Assembly (NCBI GenBank): GCA_031763025.1
Contig: JASSKH010000011.1
Location: 868,001 to 932,000, forward strand
Length of the DNA stretch: 64,000 nt
Direction of reading: 5' to 3'
DNA from: Macrocystis pyrifera
Lineage: Eukaryota > Sar > Phaeophyceae > Laminariales > Laminariaceae
Made by a program: the position numbers and the translations under genes. The notes below the pieces were generated by a model. The model was not told the DNA's origin. It saw nothing but the letters and a program-made list of their open reading frames with translations, and searched no databases. The first letter of the stretch is position 1, and every line of letters starts with the position of its first letter. Shown here piece by piece: positions 1,248-62,421 of this stretch.

Positions 1248-2005
1248 CAGTAGAAGGGAAACCGCGGTAGAAGAGAGTAGCAGAGAGACCGCAGATAGGG
1301 TAGCAAGGTACCAGGCCGACTAATAGGTTGGACTTTTCTTTGCTACTCGTACCGCCAACTGCTGCGGCCGTTCGGTATGCGTTTTGATTTTTTTCCCTTC
1401 TTTTATCCTTATGAAAGAAGTACTACATAGTGGGTGGGTGACGAGCTTATTTTGGCCTACTCACTGGAGTGTTTGCGATTATTTATTTTTTTACTTTTAC
1501 TTCTCTACAAATTCTCCCGAGGTAAATTTTTGAGGTAAACTATTGCTCTTTTTACTTAGTTAAGTGTTCACCGGGATGCATAGTCCCCTTTTTCCTTCTC
1601 GTATCTTTCCCCTTGCACGTCCCTGTTGGCTCATGCTCGGGGTAAGTATGTATGTGTCTGAGCTTTAGCTTCCCATTTTATATTTTATTTGGGATTCTTC
1701 TCCTTTTCTTTTTCTTTTTCTTGTTCTTTTTCGGTTTGGTTTTTTCGTTGCTTCTCTTTCTTTATGGTGTATTTTGGTTGCTGGCGTATGTATGTATGTT
1801 GTGTCGGCCGCACCTAGTGCGAAGGCATGGTATTGCGTAGGCTATTAATGCATTACGGTGTGTTATCTCTGTGTCGTAGTCTGTGACCACAGAGCTCGTA
1901 TATTTCTACGTAGGGTGAAGAATCAGCACGGACACTGGGCTTGCTGGATGTCGACGAGTAGAAGAACGGTTTTAATGTGAAGAACACACACACACACGTA
2001 CTGTA
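1248..2005 (+). repeat. Dispersed repeat family Z, copy 1
   Basis: Shares long blocks with 4632-5074 and 5600-6305: a purine-rich head around GGGAAACCGCGGTAG, a middle block with CACCGGGATGCATA, and a tail ending in ACACACAC. The middle is very T-rich, and its open frame (Phe/Leu-rich) is low-complexity and not a convincing gene. A tail-only fragment lies at 41792-41880. The family is probably a non-coding TE or a solo-LTR-like unit. Its class is unknown. Confidence 0.75.
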
Positions 2006-2175
2006 TTTTCAGCGTATTTTATGTTGCTCACAGCCGAGTGGAAAGGTCCCGGAAAGTGCTTCAGGTCTTGAGGTGCACTCACACACACCACAGACAGGTT
2101 CAACCAACAGCAAATAAATACGTACACGTATGTATATCTTCTTGGTGAAAAGATTTGGGGATCGGCACAAAAGAC

Positions 2176-2284
2176 TATTACGGGGGTCCATTGTTAATGG
2201 GACCAAATTTTGTCACTAAAAATAGGAAATTATATAGGTTTTTATATAAACCATTGGTCCTATTAACTATGGACCCCCGTAATA
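2176..2284. mobile_element. MITE copy 1 (TTACGGGGG family)
   Basis: About 109 bp including flanking TA. Terminal inverted repeats (TIRs) begin TTACGGGGGTCCA and end with the complement, and the AT-rich core has no coding capacity. TA duplications flank the TIRs, as in Tc1/mariner-type MITEs. Confidence 0.9.
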
Positions 2285-2490
2285 ATAACGCATTATCTTT
2301 ATAAAAACGGATGACGTGAGAGGAGGAGCGACGAGATGATTTCCCCTTCCTTCTTCAAAAACCCCACCCCACTTCACCACACTGCTCGAGCACGAGCCAC
2401 CCCCCCCTCACTTCCAAACACCGCAGGTCGAGACCTGCCCGAAGCCGTAGCCCGGTCCGTCAAACAGCGCATCGTTGTGTTCGAGGAGCA

Positions 2491-2878
2491 ATGAGTGCTA
2501 AGTCTCGCTGGAGCTACAACAAGAAGGTCAGTTGTTGTCTGTTATCTCTGTCATTATTATCTCGATAAATATACTACGAGTGTCTGCAGCACCAGCATCT
2601 TGTATGCAGGTTGATTTTTATTTCAACCACTTTGCATGTTCCGTTTTTGTACGAAGTGAACATATTTTCACCAGCAGCAGCAACAGCAGCAGCCGCAGCA
2701 GCGACACCAAACAAGCAGCAACGTATATACGACGTTCGGAGCTCAGCTAGCTTCTGGAAATCTGCTAGGAGCGCCCATGTCCCCAGTACCAATGGCTCCG
2801 CTCGTCGAAGCAGCAGCTCGTGTCGTGTGTGTACCACCACCACCACTCGTGCCCCCTCCGTTGCTTGCTTCTACTTGA
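2491..2878 (+). CDS. Possible small Q- and P-rich protein, two exons
   Basis: An ATG at 2491 in good context (GAGCAATG) opens 12 codons, MSAKSRWSYNKK, that stop at an AAG|GTCAGT donor (2526/2527). A CACCAG acceptor at 2674 leads in phase into a glutamine run, then a stretch containing FGAQLASGNLLGAP and a proline-rich C-terminus, ending at TGA 2876-2878. That makes 79 residues in all. The GC-rich block at 2330-2490 would be the 5' UTR. What is seen is phase agreement, splice signals and amino-acid bias; no family is recognised. Simple CAG repeats can create such frames by chance, and a GTGTGTGTACC donor near 2825 could extend the gene into further exons. Confidence 0.3.
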
Positions 2879-2884
2879 TGCATT

Positions 2885-3906
2885 GATCATAGCTTCAAAA
2901 AGCAAAAATCGTTCGAGAATCAACTGCTGTCTGTAATCGCCTGCTCCTCCTGCTCCCTCGCGTAACGACAAGCGACAAGCAAGCTAGTGATGGGCGTGTG
3001 GGCGTGCGTTTAAGCCGTGTTCTTTGGTGCTCGCTGGCAGCTGGCTGTCTGGTGCTGGCTGACGTAGCCAAAGAGAGCACCCGGTTATTTCATCTTCTTG
3101 CGGTCTGCCTAATGATCACACAGCATTCCATTCTTTTGGTCCCTGTTTGCTGAGTTTTTGACTGATCATCCATCATCTTATCATCTGGAGTAGCTCCGGC
3201 CGGAAATCGTTGTAAGTAGCACGAAACACGAGCAGACGAGTTGCTGCGGCGTCTAGACTCGAGGTTGTTTAATGCCATGTATCTACCAGCGCGGGTAAGA
3301 ATAGTTCCAGGTACCAGGTATTAAATAGTACTGCTGCTGTTACCTGGTACTGCTGACATATACAGCAGGTCAGGCCAGTAAGCTGCTGCTGCAAACCATC
3401 TTATATATTATCATAGTGTGGGTGTACAGCAGTTAGTCTGTAGTGCTTGCTGCTGCGCTGCTGCGTACTGCTTGTCGTACAGGTACGTATGGGTGAAGAA
3501 ACATATATACGAGGTAGATTGTACGTATTTGATGGGATGTGCGGCGTAGCGTTATACTTGTCTTTATGTCAGGTAGGTACATGACATATATATTTCATGT
3601 ACATTAGTTGCTTGTACCAGTAATGCTGCTGTACACGTACTGGCGTCAGTCGGGAGTAAATACTCGTACTTACCTGGTATGTCAGATGTTCTCGAGACGA
3701 AAGCCCTCTCGGAGCAGACAGACTCTGTTCCTTCTGTTGCTGCTGACCCGTTATGTACAATACGAATGCTGCTGCTTTTATGGGCTTCGTCTGACGTAGC
3801 TACTAGTCGGGCTTCAGGGCATACTTTTGTATGAGCTGTGAGTATCAACAGCAGTGTTGGTGCTGTTGTTTCTCATCGCCGCAATACGTCGTACAATAAA
3901 TAATAC
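2885..3906. other. Intergenic stretch with short CTG/TACCTGGTA motifs
   Basis: No gene recognised. The stretch is rich in TACCTGGTA-like and CTGCTGCTG motifs, which are scattered throughout the window. A 62-codon ATG-started frame on the minus strand (3278-3090) has ordinary amino-acid composition but no recognisable domain or splice context, so it is not called. Confidence 0.4.
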
Positions 3907-4296
3907 ATTCTGGGGTCGCAGGACAGACTCCAATAACTCAGGAGTGGAAGAATACCCCGGTAGAAATATAGAACAAGAAAAGAATAACACCCGTGATGGT
4001 CAAGCACACCCCCGTGGCTTGGTAGGTGGTCGGCGTGCCTATCAAAATCAGTTGCTTCGTGGGCTCAAGTCTCACCGAGTGCATGCTCGTAATGACTTTT
4101 TCTGGCATAAAAAATTGATATTGGTAGGCGGCAAGCGCGAGAGCGTGAATTATAGCTGCATTCGATAAATTTCGACGAGCAGTGGGAATGCTGAACCCTA
4201 TGCGCGACGAAAAATAAAAGGCACGTGCCGGGGGGGAGAAGGGACGACACCTACCTGTGACCACGGCTTGTCCCTGATCCAGGAGATCGCTGCGGG
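3907..4296 (-). repeat. Dispersed repeat family X, copy 1
   Basis: In reverse complement it matches 21757-22030 over its length: blocks around GGACAAGCCGTGGTCACA, CCACTGCTCGTCGA and TTGATAGGCACGC. It also matches 5075-5485, and a 50 bp piece recurs at 10979-11031. No coding frame is shared among copies, which suggests a non-autonomous TE. Confidence 0.75.
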
Positions 4297-4631
4297 TAAA
4301 ACCTCCAACAGACAAAAATAAAAAGTGAGGTTCGCGCATGTGCATGTACGTACGTATCAGTTACATTACAAGTCGCCATAGAAACCGAGAAGACCGCATA
4401 CTACCCACTCCCCCTTAGTCTTTGGAGTTGGGACCGCACTACTGTGGCCCACTGCTGCAAAACAGACGGGAAAGTGGTACCGGGGAATCCTCGAAGCAGC
4501 AGTTTTGAACAGTTCCATGGGCAGGTGGCACGAGGCTTAGGCAAAGCTGAGTAGACAGCGCCGTGCATCCGCTGCGGGTAGTGTTAGAGGGAATGGGGGG
4601 AGGGGTAACAGCAGGAGGGGTAGAAGGAACA

Positions 4632-15800: not shown

Positions 15801-18800
15801 CTGCTGTGCTCACTTGCGCACGTAAGAATGGACTAAAAATAAAAAAGGAAGACAACGAAGCGAAGCAAAAAGAAAGAGCAGATAGCAAAAAAGCGAAAAG
15901 GAGGATACAGACCAAGAGACACAAGAAGACAGAGACACAAAGAGGAGCAAACGGGAAAAAAGGAGGGAGGGAAAAAAATAAAAGGAAAAAAAGGGACAAA
16001 AAGGAGCGGGGAGGGGAAGATGATGCGAAAGGCAGGCACTGGTGCATACAGACACGCAAAGTTGCCCGGGGGGCACCATGCTACTGTAGTTACTTGGGTC
16101 CCAAACAAGGGAGCGCATCATGACGAGATGATGGCCATACCCAGGCGTCAGTCTGTTGGGTAGACAGCCTCCCCCCCCCCGGTGTAAGACATAGCAGTTG
16201 TTCGTAGTCGCGCGCAAATGTCTGATGCGTTTTGATTGGCTGATTGGTGTATTTTGGAGCCTCAAATTGTCCTACGGGATATATGCGGTGGGTTTTATGT
16301 TTTCCCGAATGGGTTGCATAAAAATATATTTGGATGATTTTCGAGGGTCACGGGGAAGAGGGCTGAGAGGCCCCTTGCAGCTTGACCTCAGTATTCTACG
16401 ACAACGACGATAATAATAATGACATTGCTTCTTTAGCTCCCGCGCCTCATGGCAAGGTCGAGCGGTGCACCACCCGGCGCACGAGTTGTCCCCTCACACT
16501 AGCGGCAGTGCTCTACGACTCGTCGTGGTCGCAGAGTACTGCCGCTGGCGTGAGGGGGCAACTCGTGCGCCGGGTCGTTCACCGCTCGACCTTGCCATGA
16601 GGCGTGGGAGCAAAAGAAGCGATGATACTATTGTTATTATTATTATTATTATCGTCGTTGTCGTAGAATACTGAGGTCAAGCTGCAAGGGGCCTCTCATC
16701 CCTCTTCCCCGTGACCCTCGAAAATCATCCAAATATATTTTTATGCAACCCATTCGGGAAAACATAAAACCCACCGCATATTCCCGTCGGACAATTTGCG
16801 GCTCCATAAAATCACACCAATCAGCCAATCAAAACGCATCAGACATTTGCGCGCGACTATGAACAACTATTATGTCTTACACCCCGGTACCAGGTATCGA
16901 CTAAAGCGGAACCGGTTCCACCTGAGTGCGGCAGCCGCTCCCGCACCGCACTTATTCCTCTCGAGTGCGGTAGCCGAACTTCAAGTGGGGTGAATTTGTG
17001 TCTATTAGGACCGGGTAGAGATTTTCACCGCATTTATTACGTGAGGCCCCGCACTCAATGGGACCACACTTTTAGGACTGCAGTCCCATATGGGGGACAA
17101 ACCATTCAAATTTCAAGTACTTTGTCCCCAAAACTGATGTAAAGATACAAGAGACTGCAGCACTAAAAGGGTTGATTAGGTGGGGCCGTCCCTCGCCGTA
17201 CTGAAAAATATACGGAATAAAGACCGAAAGGATTTACGAGTTTCTAAATGGTAAAATTCGGTAAAAATGGAATATAGACGAGGCGTATTACGCAGCTTGC
17301 AAAGTTGAGTATCAACCATTTAATCAGTCGAACTCACAGCTGACGTATTTCAAAATTTATAAAATGGCGGTCATACCGGAATAATTAACGCAATTCGGAA
17401 ACGGTGTTGTTACGTTACGTATCATGAAGCTTTAAAAAATATGGCATTTTAAGAAAAATGAAGACGGGGACGTAGCGGTCCGAACGCATACAGGAGTAAA
17501 AACTCGGCGAGTAAAAGATACTATCGCTCGTAACACAGCAGTAGAGTATACTCCCGTAACTGCCATCATTGTTTAGGACCGCATTATCGTTTTAGAGGTC
17601 AGAGTACCTACCACATGACCAGGTAGGAGGGAGGGAAGGAGGCAGGGAGCAAGGGAGGGGTGGAGAGAGGGGAGGGAGCCTCCGCGAGGACTTCGACCTG
17701 ATGCGTGCGGCATGTGTCTAGCCGTTTCGAAAGAAATTTGTCCGTAGGTGACCATTGAGTGACCCTGATCGGACAGACAGACAGACAAGACAGACAGACT
17801 GTTTCTGAATGCGTTCTAGAGACAACAAGTGTACCGCCACTTAATTGTGGAGTGTAAGGCTAAGTTTACTGCTGGGTCTGCGGTATGTTCGAAAAAACAA
17901 AGTCGATTTATCCCCACCGCGGTACGTCAGTAATAAATAGTATCATTCGATAGTACGTGCATGTCATTTTTTTTCTTTGTTTTAATCCGTAGCGCGTCCT
18001 CCCCCCCCCACCCCCCCCTTCTATATACCTGGTATATATATATAGAGGTTTGATTGGTGTCGGTTGGCGACGACGCTGTAAAACACGCCTCTCACTGCGT
18101 GAGATAGACAGCCAGGGTACCGGTTTTTTTTTTTTGGCGGTCGGTCACAGCTGGTTGTAGAGTTAGATCATTTTTGTGCGGGGAGAGCCTTTACTCCGCA
18201 CAAAGGGGATGATCGTATCACGTAGTGTGTATATGGTGAGGCACCCACGAGGCAGTTACATAGTAATACCCATTGCTATCTCTGGAAGTGGCCACACCAG
18301 AAATTAAATCAATTCGTTGATGCTGTCATCCATATGCAAGAAAATCCGCCTCTAAGACTGTTCTTTGTAGGATGCAGCTCGCCCTTCATGCGACTAGCCG
18401 GACACCTCATGGCGCTTCGCGCTTTGCGCTTGGTGCAAACAATGTCTGCCTGGTCGGTGAGAACCCGACGCGCTCCGTCCCGGCATTGTAGGGACGCGAG
18501 GGTCTATCTATGGCCATACCACTACGGACGCGTTCTACGATAGAGGGAGCAAGCACATTTCCGCTAAAATGTTTTCTGAATGACGGGGCTCCTTACCCCG
18601 AAATCGTCGGGATGCCAATCTTGTCTCGAAAAATAACGTTGCTGTATGCTTGGGAAATGGGATTATTCATCGGGATGCGATTTAATTTTTGCTGGAGTCA
18701 GGTTTTGGGTGAGGTTTGGAGCTCCTTAAGGTCAAGTGAGGAGCCTCAGAATAATTAGCGTGAGCCTCTATCGTAGAACGCCTCTACGGCCGTGCGTGAT

Positions 18801-40604: not shown

Positions 40605-41685
40605 ACAATTATGCGAAGCGGACAGAGGTACATGGTTGAATATTGTTTTTTCATGAAGGCTGTAGTTGCAAACTGGCGACTTGATAATGTCAAGAGTCCC
40701 GCCGCCATGCTTCAGGAGAAAACAACTCGGACGCCACATACGCTTCGCGTCGCGGGCGGTTTTCCGCTACGCTCGCTCACATGTCGTACGTACGTACACA
40801 CCCCAGGTAGGGTACAATTTTTCTTCTTTAGATATGCTCTCTGTCTGCACTCGTATGTATGAAAGATAAAGCACAGCACTGCACAGCAGCACAGCAAAAA
40901 CAATGAAAATGAAACAAAAAAAATCTGAACAAAAAAAATCCCCGTCCCCTTTGGTGTAATAATTTACTGCCTGGTTGGAACACCTTACACCAGTCAAAAA
41001 GAAAAAAATCGAAAAATAAAAAAATCAAACAGCAGAGCTTCTCCCTCAGCCTCGTACGCCGCCCGCCCCTCTCGCAACGATCTCGCCACCGATTCGGTCC
41101 GGGCAAAGCTTCCCTCACTCTCTGCCACAGTGAGCCCCGTCGCCCGCCTCGCATGAGGCCCGGTGCTCACCGTGGCCGTGGTTCGCCAGCAAAGAAAGGT
41201 TGATGCTCAGCCTGCGTACCTCTTTCTTTGAGCTTCAAGCCCGGTCGCAAAAATAAGCACCGCATGAATCTTATCTTGCACTCCCGAACGACCCTTATAA
41301 ACTCGTAGATAGTCTATCAGAAACCACGAATGGAGGCCAGACAGAGCCCATTCATGCTTCCCTACTGTCTCGAGGCACACGCAACGCCTAGCCACGAAAC
41401 CGGCGACCACGCTCCTTGCAATCCCCTCTCTACCGGCCACTATCCACCGACACCCGCGACGACGCCGGGTTCGCCCGCGATGCCGTTCCCCGAGTACACG
41501 CACGCACACGAAACGAAAGAAGAAGAAAAGAAGGACTGAAAGTGCCAAGAGAAATGGAGAAAACAAAGACCCTCTGGAAAGGTCCGGCAAGTAATAAAAG
41601 GAGGCGATTCCCAAGTGGGAGCTCTGAGAGGCCAGGGATGTACCAACCGAGCACGCTCAGAGATCGAGATATCTATAAGTAGTTC
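40605..41685 (-). mobile_element. Dispersed 1.1 kb repeat family P, copy A
   Basis: Reverse complement matches 61339-62421 end to end, around 85-90% identical (from AGAACTACTTA.AGATATC to CGTCCGCTTCGCATAATT). Flanked by near-identical direct repeats: 40576-40604 and 41686-41712 both read TATGGTGTG.AAAAA.CAAATATATGGG. Open frames in the copies disagree, so it is probably non-coding (LTR-like or non-autonomous). Confidence 0.85.
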
Positions 41686-41791
41686 TATGGTGTGTAAAAA
41701 CAAATATATGGGAATTCATGATTTCTTGGTCCATCGTATTAATAAGTTCTGCTTACTATGGCCCAGCCCAGTAATAGTGACCACGAAGCTT

Positions 41792-51250: not shown

Positions 51251-51611
51251 GGGGTTAGAATGAACATGCGGAGTAGACTTGGGAGACGGGAGAAGCGCGG
51301 AAGTGTGTCTTCTACCCCAAGTCCACTTGCGTTTCGACAGGAGGGTTTGAGTGTGCTGGCCACCCCAGGCACGCCAGGATAGCCCGGAAAACCTCTGGCT
51401 TTAGCAGGGGTGATGGCGGTGGGTGGGTGGTGGTGGTGCGGCCGATAGTACCGCTGGCGGAAGTGGCGATGCGGTTGGTGCCTCGAGTTGAGCCGTAAAC
51501 AAAAAATGACGATCAAACAGGAGACGAAAAAAGGTCAACCAGCCACTTTCTTCCACACCCAAAAGCCTAAAGCCCAATACTATTACGGTGGTAATCCAAG
51601 GATCCGAGGAG

Positions 51612-51777
51612 TAAAATTGGCGATGACATCAGAGGTGATGATTTGGCACAAATCATGGAACTGAGGGTGCCATCAAAAATGTCTTGAATCTGTATTGTGG
51701 AGTGGTCGCTTACGATCACTCGTCATTTCGTTCGCAAAACCTCGTGAGCAGAGGGGGACACGAAATATTTATTGAGA
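51612..51777 (+). repeat. Split direct repeat A1 (left terminus)
   Basis: Starts TAAAATTGGCGATGACATC. Matches A2 to ..TTTATTGAGA. Confidence 0.9.
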
Positions 51778-51797
51778 GGTGAACGAGATGCCTAGAG

Positions 51798-52613
51798 ATG
51801 CCTAGGACCACGCGGTCGACACCGACTCCAACGCCTCTGGCGGACGCGACGGCTCCGGTCCCGGCGGCGCCCACGTTGCCCTTGCCCAACCCCAACCCTG
51901 ACCTAGCGTCTGCTACATTCGTGGACTCGATGACCCCCCCGCTGGAAGATCTTCCCTGCTTCATGCCGGGTACCTTGGGGGCGGGCATGGTATTGGACCT
52001 GGAGCGCGTATTCTTGGCGACGGGCAACAGCTGTGCCGATGGTTCGCGCTTCCAAGTCTCGTGCGCCCTAGGCTGGGTGGCGATGAGGCTCCCAGCGTCT
52101 AGAGGCTTGATTTTTAATTTTCAGTTTGGTAAGACTCTTCGTGCCTCTAGCGAGGCGGTAGTAGTGTTGGCAGACCGGGTCTGCCCGGAGACGTGCGCGA
52201 GCCGGGCGGTTACGGCGTACATATCAGCCGCGCAGCGGATTGGGTGGGATTTAACCGCCGGGCATATTTTCCCCGTGGTTACGACAGAGGGCGGCCGACC
52301 TCTCCGCATCCCGAATGGCCGCTTCCCTGCAGGTTCATTTGCGGGAAGCAGGCCTGCCGGACCATTTCACGATGCACTCCTTTCGAATGGGAGGCTCCCT
52401 CACCAGATCCCTGGCCGGGACGGCGGTGGACGAGATCGTGAAAATAGGTGGTTGGAAGACGGAGGCAATAGCAAAGTACTACATCGGCGCTACTTCTAGT
52501 GACCGGGTCCAAGGTGGCAAAAGAAAACGCGGCCAGCGCTACGCGGACGCTATCCAGCTTCCTCTGTCGCCCGAGTTTGAGAAGGATTTCGCAGCATGTG
52601 CGAGACAGGGTTG
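51798..52613 (+). pseudogene. Tyrosine recombinase, catalytic half, one frameshift
   Basis: The first frame (from ATG 51798) starts with a Thr/Pro/Ala-rich part (residues 1-40), possibly the start of a gag-like protein. It then enters recombinase sequence with FQFGKTLRAS, AYISAAQRIGWDLTAG and HIFPVV, to about 52310. The catalytic C-terminus continues in the +1 frame from about 52315: SLQVHLREAGLPDH, then HSFRMGG (His and Arg of HxxR), GGW and YYIG (nucleophile Tyr), to TGA 52612-52614. The core-binding N-terminus seen in the minus-strand copy at 45.3-45.7 kb is missing, consistent with an internal deletion. Either a mutation or a programmed shift separates the frames. Confidence 0.85.
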
Positions 52614-52733
52614 AGGCAAGCGTAAGGAAGTTTGGGTGAGACAAGTACGTATCCGACCCGTGGTCTATTAAGAGGACACACAACAAAATGCTATCCAACG
52701 ACGATTGAAGTATGGGCGAGACCACGGGTCGAC

Positions 52734-52803
52734 GCAGGAGACCTCATCCAAAAATCCAATACTTACATCAAATGTTCCAGGACATCGAGTCAGAATACTA
52801 CAG
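52734..52803 (+). repeat. Split direct repeat B1
   Basis: GCAGGAGACCTCATCC to AATACTACAG. Four mismatches to B2 in 70 bp. Confidence 0.92.
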
Positions 52804-52965
52804 TAATATTGATGACATCAGAGGTGATGATTTGGCACAAGTCATGGAACTGAGGATGCCATCAAAAATGTCTTGAATCTGTATTGTGGAGTGGTCGCTT
52901 TCGATCACTCGTCATTTCGTTTCCAAACCTCGTGAGCAGAGGGGGACACAAAACATTTATTGAGA
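52804..52965 (+). repeat. Split direct repeat A2
   Basis: Starts TAATATTGATGACATC directly after B1. About 93% like A1. Confidence 0.92.
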
Positions 52966-53105
52966 CCTCCCACCCACCCGTCAGTAGAATGATCATTCAT
53001 AGGCTTGGAGTCCAAGATCATTTGCAGGTACTATCCCCGCGCAGAGCAGGCGATGCGCTCGCCCACTCAGCGCGGGGCAAAATACCGGATGAGGACCCCT
53101 GCCGA

Positions 53106-53175
53106 GCAGGAGACCTCATCCAAAAAGCCAATACTTACGTCAAATGATCCAGGACATCGACTCAGAATACTACAG
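53106..53175 (+). repeat. Split direct repeat B2 (right terminus)
   Basis: Ends CTACAG exactly at the boundary given by the empty LTR. Confidence 0.92.
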
Positions 53176-53616
53176 TTTCCAGAAGTGGACACGGCATGTA
53201 GGCAAAGGGGATATTGCGAATTGAACCCGGAGACTGTGGGGATGTGAGCAGACGGTCATACCCCTTTTCCACCCCTTCAGCTTCTTATAGTTCGTCCTGT
53301 TGCCGGCAGTGTTCCCCTACACCAGAAGAGTACCGACTGAGACAACTAGGAGATGGCTCAGGCGTACGTTCCGCAGGCTGGGTGGAACAACGGGAATGCA
53401 GGTGGCAGTCTTTGCAACGAACTGAAAGAACTTGAGCGTGTAAATGTGTGCCAGACAGCCTATGGCCCTGTTTGTTGTGAGAACGAATTAATACATGATG
53501 CTTTACAGTGTGAGTATACCTGAGCAATCTTTCGAGGAACGTGAGCTATATCGGCCGGAGAGCCTGACGAGACTACGCCATCATGCATGACACCCACACC
53601 GCTCGACTCTGTGACA

Positions 53617-59022: not shown

Positions 59023-59493
59023 TGTTACGGTCGTAATCCAAGGATCCGAGGAGTTTCTAGAAGTGGACACGACATGTAGGCAAAGGGGATAATGCTAATT
59101 GAACCCGGAGACTGTGGGGATGTGAGCAGACGGTCACAACCCTTTTCCACCCCTTCAGCTTCTTACTGCCCGTCCTGTTGCCGGCAGTGTTCCCCTACAC
59201 CAGAAGAGTACCGACTGAGACAACTAGGAGATAGCTCAGGCGTATGTTCCGCAGGCCGGGTGGAACAACGGGAATGCAGGTGGCAGTCTTTGCAACGAAC
59301 TGAAAGAGCTTGAGCGTGTGAATGTGTGCCAGACGGCCTATGGCCCTGTTTGTTGTGAGAACGAATTAATACATGATGCTTTTCAGTGTGAGTATACCTG
59401 AGCAATCTTTCGAGGAACATAAGCTATATCGGCCGGAAACCCGACGAGACTACACCATCGTGCATGACACGCGCACCGCTCGACCCTGTGACA
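59023..59493 (+). repeat. 3' LTR (empty site for the YR element)
   Basis: 471 bp, uninterrupted. The point matching the insertion is 59053/59054. About 29 differences from the 5' LTR, mostly transitions. Confidence 0.9.
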
Positions 59494-59761
59494 ATACAAC
59501 ACCTTTTGTAATCGTGTCAGGAAGTATAGTACGGTTTCGTCCATCACGAACACTTGCAATAAGTCCCTTAAATATGAAACCGAGCTAGATTTATCATGTG
59601 GAAAGGGGTGTGCGCCACACTAACTAACTTCTGAATCAGTATTAACACTCCCCAAAGTATTATTTCGCCAGAAACGTCAGACTGGGTTCGCCGTGAGGCT
59701 CTTTTGAGAAGGTTATTACGGTGGTGTAAGCCACCCGTACTTGGACAAATCCACTGAATTA

Positions 59762-61292: not shown

Positions 61293-61338
61293 TCTATATT
61301 CTTGGGTATTTCAGGGCAGATAAACTCCTCGATAGGAT

Positions 61339-62421
61339 AGAACTACTTACAGATATCTCGATCTCTGAGCGTGCTCGGTTGGTACATCCCTGGCCTCTCA
61401 GAGCTCCCACTTGGAAATCGCCTCCTTTTATTACTTGCCGGACCTTTCCAGCGGGTCTTTGTTTTCTCCATTTATCTTCGTACTCTCAGTCCTTCTTTCC
61501 TTTTCTTCTTTCGTTTCGTGTGTGTGCGTGTACTCCGAGCGCGGCGCCGCGGGCAAATCCGGCACCGTCGCGGGTGTCAGCGGGTGCTGGCGGGTAGAGG
61601 GGGAGCTGCAAAGAGCGCGGTCGCCGCTTTCGTGTCTCAGCGTCGCGTGTGCCTCGAGACACGAGGGATGCATCAATAGGCTCTGTCTGGCCTCCAGTTG
61701 TGATTTTTGATAGAGTACGTACGAGTATTTAAGGATCGTTCGGGATTGTAAGATAATATTCAAGCGGTGCTTATTTTTGCGACCGGGCTGAAAATCAAAC
61801 CCATGCTGAGCACCAACATTGTCGAGTTGGCGAACCACGGCCACGGTGAGCACCGGGCCTCACGCGAGGCGGGCGACGGGGCTCACTGTGGCAGAGAGTG
61901 AGGGAAGCTTTGCCCGGACCGAATCGGTGGCGAGATCGTTGCGAAAGGGGCGGGCGGCATACGAGGCTGAGAGAGAAGCTCTGCTGTTTGATTTTTTTTT
62001 CTTTTTTTCTTTTTGACCGGTGTACGGTGTTCCAAGCAGGCAGTAAATCATTACACGAAAGGGGACGGGGGGGAAGTTTCTTTCAGAAGTTTCGGCTTCA
62101 TTTTCAGTGTGTTTGTTCGTTGTATTTGCTGCTGTGCCGTGCTGTGCTTATCTTTCGCACATACGAGTACAGACACAGAGCATATCTAAAGAAGAAAATA
62201 AGTACCCTACCTGGGGTATGTACGTACGTACGGCATGACATTGTGAGCGAGCGTAGCGGAAAACCGCCCGCGATGCGAAGTGTATGTGATGTCCGAGCTG
62301 TTTTCTCCTAAAGCATGGCGGCGGGACTCTTGGCATTATCAAGTCGCGAGTTGGTAACTACAGCAAGCAGTCATGAAAAAAACAATATTCAATTATGGAC
62401 CTCCGTCCGCTTCGCATAATT
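61339..62421 (+). mobile_element. Family P repeat, copy B
   Basis: Opposite orientation to copy A (40605-41685), full length. The flanking sequences do not share the 28 bp direct repeat seen around copy A. A GAGCGAGCGTAGCGG..CCGCCCGCG motif in it (62244-62275) recurs just outside at 62440-62480. Confidence 0.85.

Follow-up and report, generated by a model that had tools for sequence, protein, structure and literature searches.

A probable internally deleted copy of an ALOG-type, DIRS1/PAT-like tyrosine-recombinase retrotransposon nested in a long terminal repeat of the giant kelp Macrocystis pyrifera

The 64,000-nucleotide stretch of giant kelp DNA analysed here, referred to below as the window, carries a 1564-bp element at positions 51612..53175 of the forward strand. 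This element is very probably an internally deleted copy of an ALOG-type, DIRS1/PAT-like tyrosine-recombinase (YR) retrotransposon of about 11 kb, inserted in the left long terminal repeat (LTR) of an older LTR element. The short copy is an instance of ordinary decay of a known kind, if a very clear one. The family to which it belongs has about two dozen separate insertions showing the ends and the landing site (G|NAWW, no target duplication; the bar marks the junction) of a brown-algal ALOG-type element.

An earlier note on this DNA had proposed split direct repeats in the arrangement A1-ORF-B1A2B2 for 51612-53175, and direct reading together with repeat finding confirmed this plan to the base. 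All the parts lie on the forward strand. The repeats are A1 (166 bp, 51612..51777) and A2 (162 bp, 52804..52965), and the two 74-bp B repeats, B1 (52730..52803) and B2 (53102..53175, the right end of the element). In BLAST alignments A1 and A2 are 94.9% identical over 156 bp, and B1 and B2 93.3% identical over 75 bp; compared end to end, the A pair differs at 11 of 162 positions plus four gap columns and the B pair at 7 of 74. B1 directly adjoins A2 at 52803/52804, as the note had it, and the contact reads CAG|TAA. Joining B2 to A1 gives CAG|TAA again, so the proposal that closing the element into a circle would recreate its internal B-A junction holds. With GAG closing the left flank and TTTCC opening the right one, the element in between reads TAAAATTGG...CTACAG; because a G (AG in the window copy) stands both before the insertion point and at the B end, the two ends are ambiguous by 1-2 bp.

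Between A1 and B1 there are two coding remnants separated by a deletion junction (52084..52085), at which TG is common to both sides. The left remnant (51798..52083) derives from the first ORF of the long copies described below; it matches the long copy on contig C222 in two frames and is gag-like by position only, with no family match. The right remnant (52086..52704) is the C-terminal part of a tyrosine recombinase, interrupted by one frame change and by stops. Its match to Phage_integrase (E 0.0028) is under the cut-off. It retains HSFRMGG and IGGWKTEAIAKYYI, which we take to be the His-x-x-Arg and Tyr regions of the recombinase. The note's phrase "half a recombinase" is apt, as only this C-terminal remnant is present, without the first part of the protein.

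The insertion itself can be read from an empty site in the same window. The joined flanks align unbroken to a sister repeat at 59025-59493 (442 of 470 columns identical, one gap), and this repeat reads GAG|TTTCT at the insertion place. The sister LTR is thus the uninserted target, at 59053/59054, and it bears out the claim that there is no target duplication, beyond the shared G (AG in the window copy). The host repeat is a multi-copy, LTR-like sequence of about 471 bp, with a TG start and a CA end in all 11 uninterrupted copies read. Among the 40 scored places (434 candidates), 39 are intact across the insertion point, including the right copy in the window (59023..59493), and only the left copy in the window (51581..53616; about 471 bp without the insert, starting with TA where the others start with TG) is interrupted there. 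By eye, the window LTR pair is bounded by a 4-bp target duplication, ATAC, at 51577..51580 and 59494..59497, and because of this we read the whole as a single LTR element whose left LTR was the landing place of the YR element. Between the two LTRs, 27 of 469 bases differ. The host repeat as part of a coding LTR element was considered and rejected, since there is no stop-to-stop frame longer than 178 aa between 53650 and 59020. The window also holds a 1.1-kb inverted pair with 86% identity (40607-41688 and 61337-62421) and an imperfect 0.7-kb palindrome (16181-16883, a self inverse match of 90%).

The family was sought in the Macrocystis pyrifera assembly (537,376,219 bases, 223 contigs) using the whole element (40 places scored of 946 candidates) and its left 472 bases (40 scored of 270). 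Among the 40 places scored for the whole element, the window copy was alone in having matches to both sides of the junction. In other copies the match covers either the right part, starting at about base 473 or beyond and reaching the right end, or the left part, starting at base 1-3 and stopping at base 455-472, and the two parts are far apart. When left and right ends were paired by position and strand, 16 copies of 9.6-18.3 kb with the same ends were obtained, 11 of them 10.9-11.8 kb long; the longest may hold further insertions. Two of these, on C222 (11,270 bp) and C206 (9,599 bp), were read through in pieces. By their shared flanks the 16 long copies amount to 13 separate insertions, with the copies at C219:18788643, C154:176206 and C151:77087 being one insertion and the two at C191:5860117 and 6087197 another. 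The same insertion with the same flanks is also seen at C218:4087624, 4184682, 4290713 and 4343658. All three sets represent duplicated genome blocks or assembly duplicates.

The ends seen in the window are the ends of the family. In the best-scoring loci fetched, all 29 other left ends start with TAA and all 29 other right ends finish with CAG, which is 24 and 26 separate insertions, respectively, once shared flanks are removed. Because other copies share this start and finish, a chance origin of the ends at 51612 and 53175 is excluded. In the longer lists of 40 scored places each, the left match begins at element base 1 in 35 places and at base 3 in 5, and 37 right ends reach the last base while 3 stop short. 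The abutment of B1 and A2 is found in 29 of 29 right-end loci, in five of them after extending an alignment clipped by 1-4 bases. In a genome-wide pattern search allowing up to three mismatches, the B-A junction occurs at 266 sites, compared with none for a reversed control; the 266 sites include a few B2 ends with an A-like target, and the number of B1A2 blocks is somewhat lower. Two exact B-A junctions lie only 376 bases apart on C206 (5713086 and 5713462), with a second A-like start after B2, being either a tandem unit or a target that resembles the circle junction. A variant B-A junction beginning with GACAG occurs on C18, C34, C42, C50, C51, C57, C64, C145, C150, C159 and C166, and also on C209 and C218; among the sites listed, 11 of 13 with one mismatch are on low-numbered contigs, perhaps unscaffolded ones.

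The repeats within a copy are not each other's closest relatives as a rule. A copy's own A2 ranked first for its A1 in 4 of 14 copies, three of these being ties, and an A1 often has a closer match in the A1 of another copy than in its own A2. Because of this, the data give no support to a simple scheme in which every cycle recopies the ends from the inner repeats, and the divergence between A1 and A2 was rejected as a clock on the same ground.

The earlier note had suggested that longer copies with a reverse transcriptase would reveal the parent, and longer copies do exist, one of them with a reverse transcriptase. A Pfam scan of seven ORFs from one of the 16, the C222 copy, found RVT_1 over the cut-off (E 6e-8) as well as ALOG_dom (PF04852; E 1e-6, 29.4 bits against a cut-off of 26.6). 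Two further matches fell under the cut-off: RVT_3, which is RNase H-like (E 0.16), and the C-terminal part of Phage_integrase (E 0.0026). NCBIfam gave nothing over its cut-offs, its RNase H match (0.012) included. The three ORFs in the 5' half had no Pfam match, and no methyltransferase was matched among the seven ORFs. For the N-terminal zinc ribbon and inactive adenine methylase, there was no Pfam match in two ORFs covering part of the region; cysteine pairs were noticed by eye in the ORF list. As to ALOG in other copies, the domain was matched in 3 of 9 stretches from six loci, always under the cut-off, four of the nine stretches lying mostly beyond the domain. A genome-wide ALOG search had one place over the cut-off of 8 scored, and it is not a census, because it missed the C222 copy, which is not among the places listed. 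In both long copies read, the 5' half is rich in a degenerate tandem repeat of about 110-120 bp (L061, about 1600-4600; L064, about 2300-3700). This array may explain part of the spread in length among the long copies.

Against this parent, the loss in the window copy can be placed closely. The left part of the window copy aligns to the C222 copy to about base 658 of L061, and the right part from about base 4479 of L062, with identities of 91% and 92%; both alignments stop at the junction. Compared with the C222 copy, the window copy is short of about 9.7 kb, in which lay the reverse transcriptase and the ALOG-bearing part of the recombinase, and the 2-bp microhomology TG marks the join. Splicing was rejected by eye as an origin of the gap: however the microhomology is placed, the junction accommodates no GT...AG pair, which makes an origin from spliced RNA unlikely. 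Trees were made for the right part with 31 other rows and for the left part with 30, midpoint-rooted for drawing only. In the left-part tree the window copy falls together with the long C222 copy (SH-aLRT 93), and in the right-part tree with the C189, C195 and C222 places (SH-aLRT 90); among these three kin places, only C222 is known to be long. Because both halves group with the C222 copy, the window copy is, judging by these trees, a branch of the C222 lineage rather than a separate class. In the two trees its terminal branches (0.016 and 0.023) are shorter than the difference between the host LTRs, and this fits nesting in an older LTR element. The earlier note had left a choice between a compact deletion derivative and a recombinase-only class; the deletion derivative has stood, and the long copies, with a reverse transcriptase in the one scanned, speak against the other.

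That other reading takes the short form as complete, a recombinase-only element with Ngaro-like ends that moves as DNA by its own recombinase, in the manner of a Crypton. Cryptons are DNA transposons with a tyrosine recombinase and without reverse transcriptase. The window copy resembles them in its tyrosine recombinase and its small size, and it does hold nothing but recombinase remnants. The kelp family differs, however, in having split repeats and, in the one copy scanned, a reverse transcriptase; the long copies are flanked by the same ends and repeats, and the recombinase remnant in the window is broken and lacks its first part. A 120-base query across the window junction found a high-identity match once, in the window, among 40 scored of 205 candidates. 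A second copy with a similar junction should have ranked above the one-sided matches that make up the list. The check for a mobilised 1.5-kb family, which had been proposed as a sign of mobilisation, was thus negative in these scored places, and a Crypton-like origin of the short form is extremely improbable.

The question of when the middle was lost is more evenly poised. The deletion may have happened in place, with a full-length copy inserting into the LTR and its middle being lost later by end joining, and we give this about an even chance. The 2-bp microhomology and the junction found once among the scored places agree with it, and so do the differing junctions in two other short copies, which have 0-3 bp of microhomology. 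A template jump would leave the same scar, however. It is also quite possible, if somewhat short of an even bet, that the short form itself moved, the deletion having preceded insertion through a template jump or an earlier short copy, with the recombinase supplied by long copies. The ends and repeats needed are all present in the window copy, and the repeat plan is complete in three other short copies: 1737 bp (C191:3836051-3837787, with two deletions), 2723 bp (C221:6410365-6413087) and 4480 bp (C213:7068722-7073201). In a fourth, L065, A1 and a single B are left. Among the scored places, though, the window junction did not turn up a second time at high identity, and the short copies each have their own breakpoints, which fits separate losses too. 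The microhomology is 0-3 bp at both junctions of the 1737-bp copy and at the single junction of the 2723-bp copy. Short two-ended copies form repeatedly, and the scored places give no sign of amplification for any of them. We regard deletion in place as about as likely as loss during reverse transcription.

While the four short copies besides the window copy all have breakpoints other than its own, those of L065 come close. This 1265-bp copy (within C221:13423800-13427300, reverse strand) has A1 and one B, with no A2 and no second B; it spans the window junction at 75-78% identity, and on both sides its join falls no more than about 10 bp from the window breakpoints. A query across the L065 join was spanned only by L065 and the window copy among 40 scored of 106 candidates, and in the search across the window junction, too, these two were the only spanning places among the 40 scored. 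One could take this as a shared ancestral deletion, an old short lineage. Such an ancestry is very unlikely, given that both trees (midpoint-rooted for drawing only) put the window copy with the long C222 copy and away from L065, which forms a long branch apart, and that L065 has a scar of its own, its left and right kin overlapping by 5 bases at the join (query 70-74). The simplest reading of the alignments and trees would be two separate events at nearly the same place, and this closeness is odd and something that we cannot explain well under separate events. Two routes could account for the absence of A2 and B2 from L065: recombination of a circle at its two B-A junctions, or an ordinary B1-B2 recombination. 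A broader idea, which we consider unlikely, is that compact A1-ORF-B forms recur through one favoured jump from first ORF to recombinase, keep both ends and are moved by long copies, L065 being a recombination product of a circle's two identical B-A junctions.

The separate insertions of the family also show a preference in the target, counted with shared-flank loci removed (two plus three loci on the left, two plus one on the right) and the window rows set aside. Immediately before the element stands a G in 23 of 24 cases and an A in one. After the element, the first base is free (T 10, G 8, A 7, C 1), the second is A in 23 of 26, and the third, fourth and fifth are A or T in 25, 25 and 23 of 26, giving the consensus G|N-A-W-W. 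At the B-A junction of the element itself, most copies have G|TAAAATT and the window copy has G|TAATATT, which means that target and circle junction have a core in common. The target of the window copy, G|TTTC, departs from the consensus at the A. We infer that the pattern fits exchange by the recombinase at a short shared core. In the cycle that we propose for the family, RNA would be reverse transcribed, the internal B1A2 block would bridge the two ends to give a circle with a B-A (CAG|TAA) junction, and the recombinase would exchange this junction with a chromosomal G|NAWW, leaving A1 on the left, B2 on the right and no target duplication. For the window copy, the middle would have been lost by joining at the 2-bp microhomology, either in a template jump during reverse transcription followed by insertion of the 1.56-kb form, or in repair after a full-length insertion. 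Because its recombinase remnant is broken, the copy would be movable only with help from a long copy.

The element kind is already known, and the G|N-A-W-W preference is the new detail. The family also shows that large ALOG-type elements leave compact two-ended derivatives. The ALOG domain has been proposed as the source of a family of plant developmental regulators (PMC3537659), and for this reason it is of some interest which DNA its recombinase relatives act on. Among the top-ranked titles in literature searches on DIRS, Ngaro, ALOG and split direct repeats, none dealt with such elements in giant kelp, and a literature search for a short relative in Chlamydomonas gave no paper. In the main text of the giant kelp genome paper, "DIRS" has 0 occurrences (PMC10498591).

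The closest published counterpart is the ALOG-type DIRS1-like retroposon of another brown alga, Ectocarpus siliculosus, which is longer than 9 kb, with 159-bp terminal direct repeats and with a reverse transcriptase-RNase H upstream of a recombinase whose DNA-binding domain is ALOG (Iyer & Aravind 2012, PMC3537659). The kelp family resembles it in its terminal direct repeats (A is 166 bp in the window) and, in the C222 copy, in having the reverse transcriptase upstream of the ALOG-recombinase, the RNase H match being only weak. In the parts tested, the C222 copy matches the published architecture. The ALOG part is present in the parent and deleted from the window copy. The kelp element differs in its length of about 11 kb and in its B repeats and B1A2 block, and the window copy in being without the middle. 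"Split direct" has 0 occurrences in the text of the Ectocarpus article, and the detail of ends and target given here is absent from its passages on the element (PMC3537659). In the Ectocarpus element, the 5' ORFs that are reported to diverge fast might be a tandem array like that in the long kelp copies.

On the mode of integration, DIRS1-like elements are described as integrating at a 3-bp junction without target duplication (PMC3266345), and insertion without target-site duplication, a general mark of YR retrotransposons, is what the empty site in the window displays. The split direct repeats A1-B1A2-B2 define PAT elements and also occur in Ngaro (PMC4157794), and Ectocarpus is credited with 15 Ngaro and 5 PAT-like families (PMC12477816). 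With PAT and PAT-like elements (Pat1, Toc, Kangaroo; PMC4157794), the kelp family shares the split repeats, the tyrosine recombinase and the reverse transcriptase; it differs in the long 5' minisatellite of the two long copies read and in its ALOG-type recombinase, and the definition of PAT includes a methyltransferase. With Ngaro (PMC4157794), it shares the split direct repeats and an inner block downstream of the recombinase, and the absence of a methyltransferase would be a mark of Ngaro. The "Ngaro-like ends" of the earlier note are therefore a fair description of the repeats; the ALOG-type recombinase, in contrast, is reported for DIRS1-type elements, and a PAT-like rather than a Ngaro family would seem to fit best.
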